This document shows positions 22,380 through 63,931 of a stretch of DNA of 64,000 nucleotides, piece by piece. Position 1 is the first letter of the stretch. Each line of letters opens with the position of its first letter. A model generated the notes under the pieces. The model did not search any database. It worked only from the letters and a program-made list of their open reading frames with translations, and was not told where the DNA came from. Position numbers and translations under genes: made by a program. This DNA is from a virus: the IMG/VR virus record IMGVR_UViG_3300025364_000003, positions 62,001-126,000 of that record. The stretch is one strand, 5' to 3'.

Positions 22380-23153
22380 ATGAGTATCCCGAATCGTCCG
22401 TTTGGTGTCGAACTTGAGTTCAACAGTGCACCTCCACCGGAAGTGCTGGCGTGGCTTCTCAGAGATAAGGGCATCAAGGCTCATGATGACGCCGTTGCCC
22501 GTGATCATTCGTTTTGGCTCGTGCATGATGATGCCTCTATCACTGGACCTGGGGTGCATATTGAGGTTTCTTCCCCGATCCTCCGAGGAAAGAAAGGTTT
22601 GGCCGAGGTTCGTTCAGTCTGTCGTTTTCTCACCAAGTTGGGCTGTAAGACGAATTCGTCTTGTGGGCTTCATGTCCACGTGAGTGATAGCAGAATCACC
22701 AATTCGACTCTGATAAACATTCTCAAGCGCTATGCAGAAAATGAAGAATTGATCGACTCTTGGATGACAAAGAGTCGTCGTGGAAACCGAAACCCATTTT
22801 GTCGTTCTCACAAGAGGGACTGGAAAGATATGGTTGCATGTCTTTCCGACAAGGAAGAGAATCTTAGATTGCGTTTTGGTGAACGTTTTGAGGTTTCTTC
22901 TACTGTTGGTGGTGATAAGATCAACTTCGATTCCAATTACGCCACCCTGGAATTCCGTCACCATCATGGGACACTCAACTCCACAGAAGTCTCCAATTGG
23001 GTACAATTCTGCCTAAACTTCGTGGAGGTTTCTGCCGATCTCACCCCTGGAACCCGACGAGCAACCAAGCGCACCAGGGACACTGGACCTCTGATGGGTT
23101 TGTCCACAAATATTCGGAATCATTTCACTTACCAGGCCGAGCGTCTTCGCTAA
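22380..23153 (+). CDS. amidoligase-like enzyme
   Basis: 257 aa. FGVELEFNS at the N-terminus, D-x-S-I, IEVSSPILRG, CGLHVHVS and a late LEFRHHHGTLN match the putative amidoligase family (ATP-grasp/glutamine-synthetase-like fold), enzymes predicted to form amide bonds between amino acids or to peptides, common in phages and fungi. Substrate unknown. About the full family length. Little promoter evidence upstream; possibly co-transcribed with 21529. Confidence 0.8.
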   Translation: MSIPNRPFGVELEFNSAPPPEVLAWLLRDKGIKAHDDAVARDHSFWLVHDDASITGPGVHIEVSSPILRGKKGLAEVRSVCRFLTKLGCKTNSSCGLHVHVSDSRITNSTLINILKRYAENEELIDSWMTKSRRGNRNPFCRSHKRDWKDMVACLSDKEENLRLRFGERFEVSSTVGGDKINFDSNYATLEFRHHHGTLNSTEVSNWVQFCLNFVEVSADLTPGTRRATKRTRDTGPLMGLSTNIRNHFTYQAERLR

Positions 23154-23169
23154 CGAATAACAGTTATTT

Positions 23170-23206
23170 GGTGTAAATCTTAGAACGTCTATAATAGGAT
23201 AATAAC
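23170..23206 (+). promoter_or_regulatory. leaderless-type promoter
   Basis: GGTGTA, 18 nt, ATAGGAT; ATG 37 nt from first base. TATAAT also occurs 6 nt earlier. Confidence 0.5.
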
Positions 23207-23452
23207 ATGCTCATCAAGCTCAAAGACCGCAACGGAACCATCCCGGACTTCGATCGCCAGCTCGGGGAGGCTCGATACTGTCTGCCGGACATGGAAATGT
23301 ATCACCGAGCCTGTCTCGTCCTGTACGACACCGAGGCCAACAAGTTCACCCTGTTCACCCGTGATCTGGTCACTTCGGAGTACATGGTGACTCAGGTGGA
23401 GGGAACCCGTCGGGGCTTGCAGTACAAAAAGTTCTGGGAAAAAGCTTCGTAA
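23207..23452 (+). CDS. hypothetical protein
   Basis: 81 aa, alpha/beta: MLIKLKDRNGTIPDFD, then YHRACLVLYDTEANKFTLFT. GC-rich codons. Leaderless. Unrecognised. Confidence 0.65.
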   Translation: MLIKLKDRNGTIPDFDRQLGEARYCLPDMEMYHRACLVLYDTEANKFTLFTRDLVTSEYMVTQVEGTRRGLQYKKFWEKAS

Positions 23453-48233: not shown

Positions 48234-49399
48234 TCAAACATTTTCATCAAACGAACCTTAATCTCGTTTGGGTGAACTTTGCCTTGGCTGTTTCTTATTT
48301 CTACATTGTAATAAGCGGTCGTGGTGTAAATCTTAACGGTAACTTGTTTAGAACTACTTTTTGGATTCCAATAAGGGTAGTTCACAATTACACTTGTAAT
48401 GTCGCCAACCTTTTCCATTGCATCTTCCGCAGAGGCAAGGTTGATTAGTTGGTATCCCGGTCCTTGTGAAGCCATCTTTGGTCTGAGATACCAATATCCA
48501 TATCCATATGCACTTGCAAGATATGATTTTATAATTTCTTCATCGTAGTTGACTGGGACATTTCTATAAGGCGGGTTTGTAATTTTGTGCTGAACATAAT
48601 CATTCAGACCTTCGACGACTTTTGTTTTGTCTACTCCGCACCCATCAACTATAAATTCATCCAGTACATGAGTCCCGTTTTCAAAACCAATTATGTTTTT
48701 TCTAATAAGTTTTGGTATGAACGCAGAAAAATATCCTGAGTTTGCTAAAGTTTTACCTTCCCTATTCTTAAGGCTGATGTGAATTTTTCTTCCATTTTTA
48801 AGAAGAAAATCAAGGTCTGAGATCATTTCACCAACATCAGTTGGACCTCTTAGAATTGGTCTCTTCACTCTCTTGGAACCGACGTGAATAATTTCTGCAA
48901 CATCTGATGTCTTGATATTGAAAGCATTTAATAAAATCTTGTGAAGCTCTCCACGAGCTTTGTTGTTTTTCTTAACTGCTGCTTTTTGGCTTGCCTTAAG
49001 TTTTTCGATTGTTTGAGTTTCAAAATCGTGACCTCGGTTTGTGCCCTGACCAAATACAATGAAAAACTCAAACTCTCCATGACGCATTACGTAGGTGTTG
49101 AATTTGCTTGAGTCTGACCCTGGCGCACCAGGCGGAATGATCTTGATGACAGAAGCCCCAGCTTCTTTAATAATGTCGGCAAGTTCATCGGACGGCACTT
49201 CCACTTTTGAATTTTGCCTTTGGATTCTATAGGATTTACGTTTTTTACCACTCAGTCTAAGTCTTCCATTAGACAGGTCCACAATCCTACGAGCAATTTC
49301 AACTGGCGACCTAGCTTTGGTTATTTCCAGTTCGGAATTGGGCGTAATAGACACGTCTTCTTTGAGGGTTGGTAAAAATGTTTTGGTTAAAGTTTTCAT
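48230..49399 (-). CDS. hypothetical protein, possible PD-(D/E)XK-like nuclease
   Basis: 389 aa from ATG 49399. Central DVGEMISDLDFLLKNGRKIH followed by SLKNREG resembles a D...xSLK core of restriction-endonuclease-like folds; earlier region FNTYVMRHGEFEFFIVFGQG is beta-rich. The N-terminus TLKEDVSITP has an LKE site fitting T4-type prohead protease specificity. Lies in the head gene region on the opposite strand. Confidence 0.5.
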   Translation of the reverse strand: MKTLTKTFLPTLKEDVSITPNSELEITKARSPVEIARRIVDLSNGRLRLSGKKRKSYRIQRQNSKVEVPSDELADIIKEAGASVIKIIPPGAPGSDSSKFNTYVMRHGEFEFFIVFGQGTNRGHDFETQTIEKLKASQKAAVKKNNKARGELHKILLNAFNIKTSDVAEIIHVGSKRVKRPILRGPTDVGEMISDLDFLLKNGRKIHISLKNREGKTLANSGYFSAFIPKLIRKNIIGFENGTHVLDEFIVDGCGVDKTKVVEGLNDYVQHKITNPPYRNVPVNYDEEIIKSYLASAYGYGYWYLRPKMASQGPGYQLINLASAEDAMEKVGDITSVIVNYPYWNPKSSSKQVTVKIYTTTAYYNVEIRNSQGKVHPNEIKVRLMKMFD

Positions 49400-49404
49400 A
49401 AAAA

Positions 49405-50112
49405 TCAATCCTCAAGTGCTTCGTCAAATTCACCATAACGAGCATTGTCTTGTGTTAGAGCCGAGACAACATCAGTTTTAGAAACTTCTTCACGATCGTC
49501 AGCATCGTCGCCATGTGGTGTTTCTGGAATATTGTTCGACGAGGCAATGTTCAATTTAGATTGGTAATCAACTTCGGCACTGTCAGTAGTTTGTACACCA
49601 TATCGTGTCTCTTGCTCGTTTTCAACTATCCCGCCAGCCGAACTTTCAATGTCATCACTTTCTAAAAATAAAGCTTTGAGACTATATTTTGATTGTTTCA
49701 TGTGTTCTTTCCTGGTACGCCAAGCAATTGGTCTGCCACCTCTCATAATAGGATATCGTTTTCCCTTACTATTCTGCGAAGGTTGCCCAGACAAATTTTT
49801 CATAAAGCTCATGAGATCCATGCTGCGCTCATCGTCGTCCCCATCAGTTAATTCACGCTCAATAGCTGGAATCGCTTTATCAAGGTCCGTATCAAACATT
49901 TTTTTCACACCAAGCTTATTTAACTTTTTCAAGATACCAAGCGTTTTTTTGCTAAGCTCATATTTCCCCTTCTTATGAAATTTTTTGAGCTGGTTATCAA
50001 TTATTTGTTTAATAATTGAAGAAAATTCTTCATCCAATATACCCTCTTCAAGAATAAGTTGGTCATTGATGCTTACAGATGCGAAAGTTTCTTTTAAGGA
50101 AGTTTTGGACAT
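49405..50112 (-). CDS. hypothetical head-region protein
   Basis: 235 aa, highly charged, helical N-terminal half (KELSKKTLGILKKLNKLG type) and acidic C-terminus. Begins MSKTSLKETFASVS; SLKETF also occurs near the portal C-terminus. SD region AT-rich. Role unknown; scaffold or core-like composition. Confidence 0.55.
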   Translation of the reverse strand: MSKTSLKETFASVSINDQLILEEGILDEEFSSIIKQIIDNQLKKFHKKGKYELSKKTLGILKKLNKLGVKKMFDTDLDKAIPAIERELTDGDDDERSMDLMSFMKNLSGQPSQNSKGKRYPIMRGGRPIAWRTRKEHMKQSKYSLKALFLESDDIESSAGGIVENEQETRYGVQTTDSAEVDYQSKLNIASSNNIPETPHGDDADDREEVSKTDVVSALTQDNARYGEFDEALED

Positions 50113-50163
50113 TATATACACTCTGGATGTATTTCAAGCATAATTAGACGTTGATAGGTTAAT

Positions 50164-50985
50164 ATGGCACGCAACGAATCATTCTTTCAAAGACTAATCG
50201 AAAGTCATGCTCTTATTCCCCTGGTGCGCAAAGCTCACATGGGCAAGTCTGGGATTTATTTAATTCACAATGTAAGAACTGACCGGTTTTATGTTGGAAG
50301 TGCTACCAACCTCTATACTAGAAAAAATGTTCACCTGACTCAACTAAGAAAAAATAAGCATCACAATATCTTCCTTCAAAGAGATTTTAATAAGACTAAC
50401 GGTGAAATCAAATTTTTTGTATTACATTCAACAGAGAAATCATTACTGATTTCCAAGGAACAAGAAATTTTAGACAAGGTTTTTGGAAAGTCAGATTGTT
50501 ATAACCTAAATCCAATTGCCAATAGCTGGTTGGGTCGAAATCACAATGAAAAAACCAAAAATTTGTTGTCAGTTATAGCACTCAAAAGAAAAATTTCAAA
50601 TAAAACTCGTAAAAAAATGAGCGAATCTAAAAAGGGAATTCCGCTTCCTGAAAACCACTCAATCAGAAACGGCCACAGCGAAAAAACGAAAGAAAAAATC
50701 AGAAATTCGATGATTGGTCAGAAAAATCACTTTTTTGGCAAGACGCATTCAAAAAAAACAAAGAAAAAAATCAGTGAAAGTCTAAAGGGAAAATATTTTG
50801 GTCCCAAAAGCAAAATAAAGGCAACAAACATTATTTCTAGTGAAGTGTTATATTATGAAAGCATGGCCGAAGCTGCCAGAGATTTGAAATTAAACCAAGG
50901 GCATATTAGCAGTGTCTGCTCAGATAAATTTCAACAAACGGGGGGCTGGAAATTTGTAAAGGTGGAAAACAATGGCTCGGAATGA
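50164..50985 (+). CDS. GIY-YIG homing endonuclease carrying portal N-terminus
   Basis: 273 aa. Residues 1-11 (MARNESFFQRL) equal the portal N-terminus. GIYLIHN, YVGSATNLYTRKNVH and the catalytic Arg/Glu region form the GIY-YIG domain (30-115), followed by NUMOD-like repeats (KTRKKMSESKKG, KTKEKIRNSMIGQ, KTKKKISESLKG) and a C-terminal HTH-like SMAEAARDLKLNQGHISSV. The 3' end overlaps the portal start by 14 nt. Mobile element inserted at codon 11 of the portal gene. Confidence 0.9.
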   Translation: MARNESFFQRLIESHALIPLVRKAHMGKSGIYLIHNVRTDRFYVGSATNLYTRKNVHLTQLRKNKHHNIFLQRDFNKTNGEIKFFVLHSTEKSLLISKEQEILDKVFGKSDCYNLNPIANSWLGRNHNEKTKNLLSVIALKRKISNKTRKKMSESKKGIPLPENHSIRNGHSEKTKEKIRNSMIGQKNHFFGKTHSKKTKKKISESLKGKYFGPKSKIKATNIISSEVLYYESMAEAARDLKLNQGHISSVCSDKFQQTGGWKFVKVENNGSE

Positions 50986-53900
50986 AAGTTTTTTCCAGCG
51001 TCTGACGAGGCTCTTTAGATCTGGCCCTGCAATTCAGCGTAGGATCAAAGGCCAGAATGTAGCTTCGTACTATGATACAAAGCTCATTCAGGGCAATTAT
51101 GGATATCGTGCCCCTGCACCATTCGGCTTTGGCCGAGAAAATTCTCCATTTTCCGTGCTTGGTTCATACGGAATGCTCGATCGTATGGCTCGTTATGCTG
51201 AGTTTGCTGAGATGGAGTATTGCCTTCATGGGGATACAAAAATTGCAGTTCCTGGTGGATACAAAACCATCAAAGAGTTAGCTGAGCAGCATGGCCTTGA
51301 TGGTGAGTTTATTGTTTACTCTTGGGACCACTCAAAAGAAAAAATCGTTCCAGCAGTTGGACGACAGGCACGGCAGACACGAACAGATCATGCGTTTAAA
51401 GTCACATTCGACTCAGGCAAAGAAATTATTGGAACAAGTAATCATCGCCTAATGAAGCGAGATGGTACCTATTGTGAAATTGGTGATCTGAAGCCTGGCG
51501 ATGCTATGATGCCATTCTACAGACGTTCTGTTGCCTCAGATAGAACTGAAGGTCAGGAAAACCTATACCAAACAATCTATACGGTCAACAGAGAAGAAAA
51601 TCCATATGGATGGACAGCTGAACATAAGTTGCTGGCCGAGTTTATTCTTGGTCGGTCATTGACTGAGGATGAGGTTGTTCATCATAAGAATTTCAAGGTA
51701 CACGATAATAGGATTGAGAATCTTGAAGTCATGAGCGCAGAGGATCATCGTCGTTTGCATGCTGAAATTCTCAATGGTAAAAAATGGGATTACAAAACCA
51801 ATTCTGAATGGATTGAAAACTTCAAGAGACAACATAGTACATGGATGAAAGCTAACAATCCTGCGGAGCGTAAAGACATCACGTTCGAACGTATCCTTTA
51901 CTGGTGTGACACAAACAGTTTCAACCTATACAAGGTTGCACGTGCATTTGACACAGACACCAATACCATCAAGCGAAAGTTGGCCTCAAAGGGTTTCACA
52001 TCCTGGATTGATTTTGCAACGGCATATTCTCCTGGCTGGAGAAGTGAAAGCTGGATCAACGCAGGAAAGCAGAACCCGAGATACCGATCCGATGTGTCTT
52101 TTGGTAAGATTTGTGACGTGTACAAGCAAGGTATGACCAAAAAGGCGATTGCAGAAGCGCTTGGAGTTTCCGTAGTGCCAATTCAAAATCGCTTGAAGGA
52201 GGCAGGTTACCAAACTTGGACTGAATTTGTGTCAAGTTATGAAAACCACAAGGTGGTTTCGGTTGAATACTACGGAGAAATTCCCTTATATGACCTTACG
52301 GTTGATGGGTATAAGAATTTCGCAACTGACAGTGTCATCTCACACAACACTCCTGAGATTGCAACAGCATTGGACATTTATGCTGACGAATCTGTGGGAG
52401 GCGATGAACACGGACATTCTTTCCATGTGTTTTCAGACAACGTTCAGATCAAACGAGCTTTAGAAGAGCTTTTCTATGATGTTCTGAACGTAGAATTCAA
52501 CATCCGAGTTTGGGCAAGGAATCTTGTCAAATATGGAGATTTTTTCCTTTATAATGAAGTTCTGCCAGACATTGGCGTGATCAATGCACAGCCGATTCCA
52601 GTAAACGATATTGAACGTGAAGAAGGTTTCGACGAAGAGGACCCATATGCAATTCGCTTCAAGTGGCTTACTAGAGGAAACGTTTATTTGGAAAACTGGC
52701 AGGTTACACACTTCAGAATCTTGGGCAATGACTTGTTCTTGCCTTATGGTACCGCCGTTTTAGAACCAGCACGAAGAATATGGCGTCAGCTCATCATGAT
52801 GGAAGATGCCATGTTGGTCTATCGAGTTGTCCGTTCACCTGAGCGTCGAGTTTTCTACATTGATGTTGGGAATGTAGCGCCAAACGATGTTCCTTCTTAC
52901 ATGGAAGCAGCAAAACAAACGCTACGTTCTCATTCTGTCATTGATAGAACATCAGGTCGTCAGGACTTGCGTTATAACCCACTTGCAATCGACGAGGATT
53001 ATTATATCCCCGTTCGAGGCAACCAGTCAGGTACTAAAATTGAAACATTGGCAGGTGGCCAGCATGTTACTGCTACGGAAGACGTTCAATATATTCAAAG
53101 CAAACTATTCGCAGCACTCAAAGTTCCCAAACCTTACTTGAACTATGATGAAAACCTTTCCTCTAAGGCGACACTTGCACAGACTGATGTACGATTTAGC
53201 CGTACCATTTCTGCAATTCAGAAGATTATTATTGCAGAAATGTCAAAACTTGCAATGATTCACCTTTATGCCAAGGGGTTTGATGGAGAAGATTTAATCA
53301 ACTTTGAATTGAAGCTCAGTAATCCTTCTACAGTGGCACTCCAGCAGAAACTGGAACTTTGGGCAACTAAGATGGACGTTGCAGGAACAGCTAAAGAAAC
53401 TAAACTGGTTGATGAGCGTTGGATTCAGAAGGTATTGCTTGAACTAACGGACGACGACATTAATAAAATCAATAAAGGACTTTACGAGGATAAGATTCGT
53501 GAAGTGCAACTTGACCAAGTTGCATTTGAAGAAGAGGTCTTTAAACCAACCACAACGGATGAATTCTCACCAGCTGGTTATGGCATTCCAGGAGAGAATA
53601 TTCCGAAGGGAGAAGTGCCATCCCCGCCACCTAGAGGCGGAAGTGAAATTGTCGGTCCGCCACCAAAGAAGAATCCATATAAGCTTGATTACAAACAAGG
53701 AACAACTCCGATTAAAGCTACGCCATTCTTGACGAGAAATCGAAAAAATAGAAAGAGAAGGGTTGGTGCTGGTGGGAGATCCAATACTGCAAACCCGGAC
53801 TTTGGCGCAATGCTTCATCCAGGTAAGAACAGATCCCTAAGTGACATTTATGGTCGTCAATCTCGCATGGAGGGAATTGAAATTGATGGTGAGGAATTCG

Positions 53901-54199
53901 TATTTGGTGAAAGCAACGACTTTAAGCCAGAACCAGTTTTACCTGGCGAACTTAAGAGTATCTTTAGAAGGATGACAGAACATTTTCAAAAAAACCAACA
54001 AAAGAGGACAAAAATTATTACTGAAGAACTTGAAACTGATATCATCGAAGAAACCGACGAAGACCAAAAACTTATTGAAGAAGTGTTATCAAATGGTGAG
54101 GATATGGAAATTAAGTCATCCTCATTAAAGGAAACATTTAGCCTAGAATCAGATGAAGAAGTTGACATAGAAGATATTATTGAAATCGACTTAGAATAA
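50972..54199 (+). CDS. portal vertex protein with intein
   Basis: 1075 aa precursor, about 699 aa after splicing. T4 gp20-like: TPEIATALDIYADESVGG, NIRVWARNLVKYGDFFLYNE, WQVTHFRILGNDLFLPYGTA, VYRVVRSPERRVFYIDVGN, PKPYLNYDENLSSKATLAQ. It forms the dodecameric DNA entry channel at the prohead vertex. Residues 84-459 are an HNH intein. The C-terminus is acidic with SSLKETFSLES, a candidate prohead protease site. SD GGAAAACA. The first 11 codons are a recoded copy of the start of the upstream nuclease gene. Confidence 0.92.
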   Translation: MARNESFFQRLTRLFRSGPAIQRRIKGQNVASYYDTKLIQGNYGYRAPAPFGFGRENSPFSVLGSYGMLDRMARYAEFAEMEYCLHGDTKIAVPGGYKTIKELAEQHGLDGEFIVYSWDHSKEKIVPAVGRQARQTRTDHAFKVTFDSGKEIIGTSNHRLMKRDGTYCEIGDLKPGDAMMPFYRRSVASDRTEGQENLYQTIYTVNREENPYGWTAEHKLLAEFILGRSLTEDEVVHHKNFKVHDNRIENLEVMSAEDHRRLHAEILNGKKWDYKTNSEWIENFKRQHSTWMKANNPAERKDITFERILYWCDTNSFNLYKVARAFDTDTNTIKRKLASKGFTSWIDFATAYSPGWRSESWINAGKQNPRYRSDVSFGKICDVYKQGMTKKAIAEALGVSVVPIQNRLKEAGYQTWTEFVSSYENHKVVSVEYYGEIPLYDLTVDGYKNFATDSVISHNTPEIATALDIYADESVGGDEHGHSFHVFSDNVQIKRALEELFYDVLNVEFNIRVWARNLVKYGDFFLYNEVLPDIGVINAQPIPVNDIEREEGFDEEDPYAIRFKWLTRGNVYLENWQVTHFRILGNDLFLPYGTAVLEPARRIWRQLIMMEDAMLVYRVVRSPERRVFYIDVGNVAPNDVPSYMEAAKQTLRSHSVIDRTSGRQDLRYNPLAIDEDYYIPVRGNQSGTKIETLAGGQHVTATEDVQYIQSKLFAALKVPKPYLNYDENLSSKATLAQTDVRFSRTISAIQKIIIAEMSKLAMIHLYAKGFDGEDLINFELKLSNPSTVALQQKLELWATKMDVAGTAKETKLVDERWIQKVLLELTDDDINKINKGLYEDKIREVQLDQVAFEEEVFKPTTTDEFSPAGYGIPGENIPKGEVPSPPPRGGSEIVGPPPKKNPYKLDYKQGTTPIKATPFLTRNRKNRKRRVGAGGRSNTANPDFGAMLHPGKNRSLSDIYGRQSRMEGIEIDGEEFVFGESNDFKPEPVLPGELKSIFRRMTEHFQKNQQKRTKIITEELETDIIEETDEDQKLIEEVLSNGEDMEIKSSSLKETFSLESDEEVDIEDIIEIDLE
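51221..52348 (+). mobile_element. HNH-containing intein in portal gene
   Basis: 376 aa. N-terminal Cys84 in CLHGDTKIAVPGG (block A), block B GTSNHRLM, C-terminal blocks F/G YDLTVDGYKNFATDS and VISHN followed by +1 Thr. Endonuclease of HNH type (EVVHHKNFKVHDNRIENLEV) rather than LAGLIDADG, followed by two HTH-like DNA-binding repeats (FNLYKVARAFDTDTNTIKRK; MTKKAIAEALGVSVVPIQNR). Splicing residues look intact. Confidence 0.92.
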
Positions 54200-55848: not shown

Positions 55849-56166
55849 ATGACCAATACCATAAATGATAACACATTTGCTTCCGAGGTACTTGCCAGCG
55901 ATCTTCCGGTTCTTGTTGATTTTAGTGCTTCTTGGTGCGGACCATGTCGCTTTGTGACCCCAATTATTGACAAGCTTGCTGAGGACTATAAAGATAAAGT
56001 AAAGATAGTAAAGCTTGATATTGACGATGCTCCTGATACAACTCAAGAGTTCGGTATTCGTGGTGTTCCAACTTTTGTTTTCTTCAAGGAAGGCAAAGAA
56101 GTAGAACGTTGGGTTGGCGCTAATAAATCTGACAAGGATTTCAGAGAAAAGCTGGACACTCTTTGA
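55849..56166 (+). CDS. trxA: thioredoxin
   Basis: 105 aa, full-length thioredoxin fold with active site WCGPC (Cys30, Cys33) and cis-Pro in GVPTF. Cytosolic disulfide reductase; in phages it may serve ribonucleotide reduction or polymerase processivity. Small promoter-like AT-rich leader; no clear SD. Confidence 0.93.
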   Translation: MTNTINDNTFASEVLASDLPVLVDFSASWCGPCRFVTPIIDKLAEDYKDKVKIVKLDIDDAPDTTQEFGIRGVPTFVFFKEGKEVERWVGANKSDKDFREKLDTL

Positions 56167-63085: not shown

Positions 63086-63931
63086 ATGAAGAAGACATAT
63101 GGTGGAAATGCTAATAAAAGTGGGATCTATAAAATCATCAACCATTCTAATGGACGATTTTACATTGGTTCCTGTAAGCGCTTTAAGCAAAGAGCATCCG
63201 AACATCACGGAGATTTAAGAACCAATCGACACTCGAATAAATTTTTGCAAAATGATTGGAATAAATGCGGGCCCGATTGTTTTGAATTTTTAGTGTTTGA
63301 GACTATAGAGAAACCAGAAGAAGAACGTCGTTTGCGAGAACAAGCGCTGTTGGACGAATTTTACGATGATCAAGTTCTTTGTTATAATATTGCAAAAACA
63401 ACTGTGGCAATTCCTCGACGAGTTTTTTCAAACGACCCTGATATCACCAAAAAGGTTCTTTCCCAAAAATCTAAGGCAATGTGGGCCGATTCTGAGTTTA
63501 GGGCTAAGATGAAAAAAATATATTCTGACCCTGGATTCCGCAAGAAGCAGTCTGAAAATCAGAAAAAAGTTTCACAAGACCCAAGCAATGGAAATTCGGC
63601 CGAAACTCTTCGAAAAAACATGTCGAATCCAGAAACGAAAGCGAAGTTATCTAAGAAGTTGAAAGAAGCTTGGGCTAGTGATGATGGAAGTCGTCGCAAA
63701 AAGGCTTCTAAAATTGCCAAGAAAGTGTATGAAGCAAACAAAGAAAAAATTACTAAAGCTAGGGTGAAAGCTAGAGCAAAATATTACGGCAAGGTTGTTT
63801 CTCCAGAAGGTGAAGTGTTTGAAATATACAACGCCAAGTCTTTTATAAGAGAGCAGGGTTTTTCGCAGACGTTTTATGACTTTTTAAATGGAAGGTACGA
63901 AGCCTATAAGGGTTGGAAGCGAGTGGAATAG
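63086..63931 (+). CDS. GIY-YIG homing endonuclease
   Basis: 281 aa. SGIYKIINHSNGRFYIGS is the GIY-YIG motif, with catalytic R-x-x-x-H in RASEHHGDL and Glu in the EEERRLREQALL helix. C-terminal NUMOD-like repeats (KSKAMWADSEFRAKMKK, KLKEAWASDDGSRRKK) and a final EIYNAKSFIREQGFS. Second GIY-YIG in the window, with only modest similarity to the one at 50164. SD AAGGAG. Confidence 0.9.
   Translation: MKKTYGGNANKSGIYKIINHSNGRFYIGSCKRFKQRASEHHGDLRTNRHSNKFLQNDWNKCGPDCFEFLVFETIEKPEEERRLREQALLDEFYDDQVLCYNIAKTTVAIPRRVFSNDPDITKKVLSQKSKAMWADSEFRAKMKKIYSDPGFRKKQSENQKKVSQDPSNGNSAETLRKNMSNPETKAKLSKKLKEAWASDDGSRRKKASKIAKKVYEANKEKITKARVKARAKYYGKVVSPEGEVFEIYNAKSFIREQGFSQTFYDFLNGRYEAYKGWKRVE

Follow-up and report, generated by a model that had tools for sequence, protein, structure and literature searches.

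A homing endonuclease gene (HEG) and a portal gene lie next to each other in a virus genome and begin with the same 11 amino acids, spelled in largely different codons. How did a nuclease and a structural protein come to share a beginning, and which of the two copies belongs to the portal? The locus is contained in a 64,000-nucleotide stretch of DNA (the window) from a virus record of 206.5 kb. Its features are the following.

50122–50163, no strand: 42-bp gap between a divergent gene and the HEG-fused start
50164–50196, + strand: copy of the first 11 portal codons (MARNESFFQRL) fused to the HEG, read from the sequence, 42 bp after the divergent gene
50197–50985, + strand: body of the GIY-YIG HEG, comprising GIY-YIG, NUMOD3 and an I-TevI/NUMOD1-like C-terminus; catalytic residues Y32, Y43, R53, E99, N114
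50958–50965, + strand: Shine-Dalgarno-like AAAGGTGG within the 3' end of the HEG, assigned from sequence to the portal start
50972–51004, + strand: second version of the portal start, again MARNESFFQRL, with 9 codons different and a 14-nt overlap with the end of the HEG
50972–54199, + strand: T4-like portal (gp20) gene, 1075 aa including an intein
51221–52348, + strand: HNH intein in the portal, residues 84–459

The preliminary description had stated that the HEG (50164–50985) and the portal gene (50972–54199) share this N-terminus while 9 of the 10 non-Met codons are synonymous but different, and this proved exact on re-examination. Besides Met, the sole codon in common is GAA (Glu). The two 33-nt starts are identical at 21/33 positions, and all 12 of the 12 differences are silent, a serine switch (TCA/AGT) among them.

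The predicted product of 50164–50985 has the hallmarks of an I-TevI-like GIY-YIG homing endonuclease. It matches the Pfam GIY-YIG family (E 4.6e-8), with the conserved Y, Y, R, E and N all present, as well as NUMOD3 (E 4.2e-12), and its C-terminus matches the I-TevI DNA-binding domain (chain 1i3j) by sequence. It does not qualify as an intron-encoded enzyme: the interval 49300–52600 gave no Rfam match to a group I intron or other RNA family, and the portal, whose family match is Portal_T4, has a complete start downstream. This downstream copy is equipped with the strong Shine-Dalgarno sequence, placed 6 nt before its ATG, and the HEG stop overlaps that ATG by 14 nt (ATGGCTCGGAATGA). One portal gene is thus associated with two mobile elements, the HEG and the intein; locus L004 has an apparent insertion at the intein position, and L001, L003 and L040 are without the intein. 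Elsewhere in the window, a further I-TevI-like HEG (63086–63928) lacks a border duplication, and a thioredoxin-like gene (55849–56166, WCGPC motif) directly follows the prohead protease in the head gene cluster. The whole virus record contains four GIY-YIG matches.

The exact 10-residue match between the HEG and portal N-termini is not due to chance, and MARNESFFQRL was found in no other viral contig. We ruled out a duplication reaching beyond codon 11, where P19 and G27 align, as the conserved TRLFRSGPAIQRR is missing in the HEG. When 12 random changes were simulated, the protein remained intact in 0 of 200,000 trials, which implies either that both copies were constrained at the protein level for most of their divergence or that change occurred only in a constrained portal copy. 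Under a model of independent codon draws, at least 9 of 10 codons would differ with P ~0.045; the codons therefore look randomised, not extreme.

The preliminary description had regarded the second copy as specially recoded, and natural orthologues provide a yardstick for this idea. In a set of 59 sulfotransferase orthologues without an interruption, 71 ± 15% of the codons for identical residues differ between pairs separated by no more than one amino-acid change; 17% of these pairs reach 90% codon difference and 38% reach 80%. By this measure the portal pair (9/11) and a second HEG-associated pair, at locus L064 (9/11), are ordinary. With 71% of such codons differing between natural orthologues, no special selection is needed to account for the portal "recoding."

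Related portals bear on which copy is older. Their residues 2–6 are variable, and the closest ones retain TRLFRSGPAIQRR. In three relatives examined closely (L001, L003, L040) the portal ORF is complete and is not immediately preceded by a HEG ORF, and the gene preceding the portal has the opposite orientation in L001, L003 and the window. A fused copy sitting at the old position of the portal start is consistent with this divergent-gene layout, the flanking divergent genes themselves being not detectably homologous. The stretch 50164–50196 is probably the displaced, older portal start. The collections searched contained no near relative of the portal locus without the HEG; none of the closest portals carries MARNESFFQRL, and genome contigs yielded no close portal relative. 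The two copies match the relatives, whose silent sites are saturated, at 7 vs 5 of 14 shared codons, a near tie.

To place the portal locus among its kind, we pooled related loci, yielding 128 distinct GIY-YIG HEGs. HEG N-termini matched the N-termini of their downstream genes well above the level of mismatched pairs. A border test, which used tight windows at HEG borders and a score of at least 40, returned matches at 15 of 112 related viral HEG loci against 0.12 expected. By inspection, 12 of the 15 are gene-end duplications, about 1 in 9 related nuclease loci. In seven of these the start of the downstream gene is duplicated (N-type) and in five the end of the upstream gene (C-type). The N-type loci concern the portal (L041), a primase (L053), sulfotransferase-like genes (L112 and L064), a neck-like gene (L164), an FkbM methyltransferase whose displaced start is out of frame with the nuclease (L095), and a gene that is sheath-like by eye only, with no family match (L017). 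The C-type loci are L069, L071, L026, L096 and L181; at L069 the reading frame of the upstream glycosyltransferase runs on into the HEG, beyond which the glycosyltransferase end recurs in diverged form. Young, near-identical duplications also occur, as a 56-nt block with 1 mismatch in L095 and as 38/39 nt in L181. These data support a recurrent architecture in which a HEG is fused in frame to the first codons of a gene that is restarted by a diverged second copy.

Two further properties characterize the curated loci. The replacement start overlaps the HEG stop in 6/7 N-type loci vs 17/104 other loci, which fits a unit carrying both. In addition, pN/pS is below 1 in 11/11 curated pairs for which it was computed, as would be expected of versions that were each part of a working gene before they came together, with the proviso that detection by protein similarity biases pN/pS downward.

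Several candidates were set aside. A zinc-finger match (L094) is likely unrelated; matches at L189, L136, L171 and L178 are out of frame and of biased composition; L075 consists of tandem HEGs; and L151 and L186 contain non-coding repeats, which we left out of the gene-end count. No convincing duplication was seen among 18 HEG loci sampled from sequenced phage records. These records also contained no DNA relatives of L017 and L069, and only short, weak matches to L026. In the mirror case of L181 (8749–9753, reverse strand), the end of the upstream gene (TRIVIPNLQQALQFLG, stop included) recurs almost exactly as the HEG's own C-terminus. An inverted repeat (GTTACCTCC...GGAGAGGTAAC) spans the Shine-Dalgarno sequence directly upstream of the HEG starts of L151 (3640–3690), L186 and L181 and resembles a translation-blocking hairpin; in L151 its left arm recurs after the HEG.

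An empty site among the sulfotransferase-like loci captures the exchange directly. The HEG is present in L112 and L205 and absent from the near-identical L207; the flanks of L112 and L207 share 96.9% identity over 577 bp and 99.6% over 2752 bp, and L112 has 1125 nt where L207 has 15 nt. The native start of L207, MKSPILITGCARSG, is interrupted in L112 after ATGAAATCA, which is retained left of the insert. Within the insert lie the HEG, whose N-terminus carries MRSLRPPIFVTGTARSGTS, and a new gene start, MSDTTGSLRPPIFVVGC, joined to the native gene at the P-loop. This comparison therefore shows that the foreign gene start came with the HEG, replacing codons 4–9. L208, a second uninterrupted relative, has codons like those of the HEG-fused fragment (GTC ACT GGC.CG GCC CGG), and two rounds of insertion seem to be recorded in L112. 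At L064, an uninterrupted gene agrees with the HEG-fused copy at 30/33 nt, and the best match of the downstream copy is 27/33. The HEGs of L112 and L064 differ from each other yet occupy one conserved P-loop site in phage sulfotransferase-like genes, which suggests that a conserved target is common to both. Together with the recurrence of the architecture, the L112 insertion partly supports the earlier proposal, in which the start of a gene is captured and a second copy makes the gene whole again, without the special recoding that was part of it.

A second HEG of this virus permits a lineage test. At L053 (2001–2906; G000 C1 about 22500–23405) a HEG that looks decayed, its first GIY motif lost, is fused to ~50 codons of a primase start. 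The fragment agrees with the uninterrupted primase of genome G002 at 34/52 residues vs 23/52 for its own downstream copy (bootstrap 0.9998), so a local duplication followed by drift is an unlikely origin for the two; on these alignments, the primase copies are from different lineages.

For the portal, we consider it likely that break repair from a donor phage brought the HEG and an orthologous portal start as a unit. A free-standing GIY-YIG HEG would have entered the portal 5' end by double-strand-break repair, from a donor in which it lay directly upstream of, and overlapping, that phage's own portal start. The left junction would have fallen inside the recipient's start codons, fusing the old portal start in frame to the HEG, and the right junction would have restored the portal with the donor's orthologous start, encoding the same residues in other codons; HEG and replacement gene end would move as one unit. 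The codon differences would stem from ordinary divergence between phage lineages, and they may also make renewed cleavage, or deletion between the repeats, less frequent. For the portal we infer in which direction the replacement went, by what repair route, and that cleavage is specific and confers immunity. Counting against a donor start, 11/11 residues agree at a variable N-terminus, requiring a donor that shared MARNES.

An alternative is recoding in situ, in which an exact 33-bp duplication was followed by selection on the portal copy for silent changes blocking cleavage by, or recombination with, the HEG copy. The wholly silent differences are what this would produce, and young duplications such as those of L095 and L181 could be its starting point; we nevertheless judge it unlikely, as the serine switch would have to pass through non-serine codons or arise by simultaneous changes, the two primase copies are not sister sequences, and divergence of this degree is normal among orthologues. 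The absence of any amino-acid change despite saturated silent sites might also mean that the peptide is kept for a function in the nuclease, such as mimicry of the portal N-terminus. Fused fragments elsewhere derive from unrelated proteins (primase, sulfotransferase and others), which no common function fits, making this very improbable.

Two remaining explanations appear even more remote. The contig is metagenomic, and an assembly could have joined the portal starts of two strains around the HEG; yet the frames are clean, the 14-nt overlap is tight, unrelated contigs show the same pattern and the L112/L205 locus is backed by contigs from two samples, leaving an artefact scarcely credible. The identical peptide from both starts would also allow the portal to use the upstream start through ribosome hopping or splicing across 50197–50971. 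We give this RNA-level device the least credence, in view of the lack of an intron or other RNA family match, the downstream copy's own ATG and Shine-Dalgarno sequence, and CTA/CTG codons that are not matched take-off and landing codons.

Transfer of the HEG with a donor's gene end carries wider implications. HEGs seem to spread in company with a substitute end for the interrupted gene, and such an end would let them enter the coding region of an essential gene with no need for an intron or intein. Our results suggest that phage HEGs reshape the ends of essential proteins and that fused remnants get mis-annotated as nuclease sequence; empty-site pairs make the mechanism testable. It is possible, though we propose it only tentatively, that phage HEGs are natural home-and-rescue cassettes, carrying a translationally coupled, diverged end of the essential gene they cut, such that insertion would be harmless, the product would resist re-cleavage and the displaced old end would become the start or tail of the nuclease.

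The closest parallel is found in the mobile ORFs (mORFs) of fungal mitochondria, which form gene hybrids in Allomyces atp6 and Glomus atp6, atp9, cox2 and nad3 (PMC3630166). In Glomus atp6 the copies share 63.5% DNA and 91% protein identity, and the displaced end has 91.2% DNA identity to a relative (PMC3630166). As at the phage loci, a HEG ORF lies beside a duplicated gene end; in the fungi a foreign, mostly silently diverged copy completes the gene and the native end is displaced (PMC3630166). A diverged gene end duplicated across a HEG is present in the portal pair and 11 other curated loci, and a replacement foreign to the resident gene is evident at the L112 empty site; the primase copies belong to different lineages, and the portal replacement would be foreign under donor transfer. 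Fungal mORFs replace carboxy-terminal ends and are LAGLIDADG, except for GIY-YIG in atp9 (PMC3630166), a form matched by the C-type phage loci L069, L071, L026, L096 and L181, whereas the phage portal case concerns the amino-terminal end, the displaced start being joined to the nuclease. The open-licence papers searched contained no phage reports of duplicated gene ends, and as far as they show, an N-terminal form in phages whose displaced start is fused to the nuclease is new. What had been described for a few mitochondrial genes of fungi is thereby extended to phages, gene starts included.

Among phage elements, the free-standing Seg and Mob HEGs of T-even phages rely on double-strand-break repair for their spread, and their flanks are co-converted; one-sided, illegitimate repair at microhomology is also documented for T4 homing initiated by such breaks (PMC2988022). 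Like the portal HEG, Seg and Mob genes adjoin essential genes, but the passages considered mention co-conversion and genes that are split (mobE, mobA) rather than duplicated ends or replacement starts (PMC2988022). I-TevI of the phage T4 td intron shares with the portal HEG its GIY-YIG family and C-terminal DNA-binding modules; it sits in a self-splicing intron, whereas none was found at the portal HEG. Synthetic home-and-rescue and cleave-and-rescue drives likewise pair a nuclease with a sequence-diverged replacement of an essential target (PMC7968924, PMC7951863). Co-inheritance of the rescue copy with the nuclease is seen in L112 vs L207 and would hold for the portal under donor transfer. 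Unlike the synthetic drives, the phage case is natural, involves a gene end only, and its divergence is apparently inherited from orthologues.
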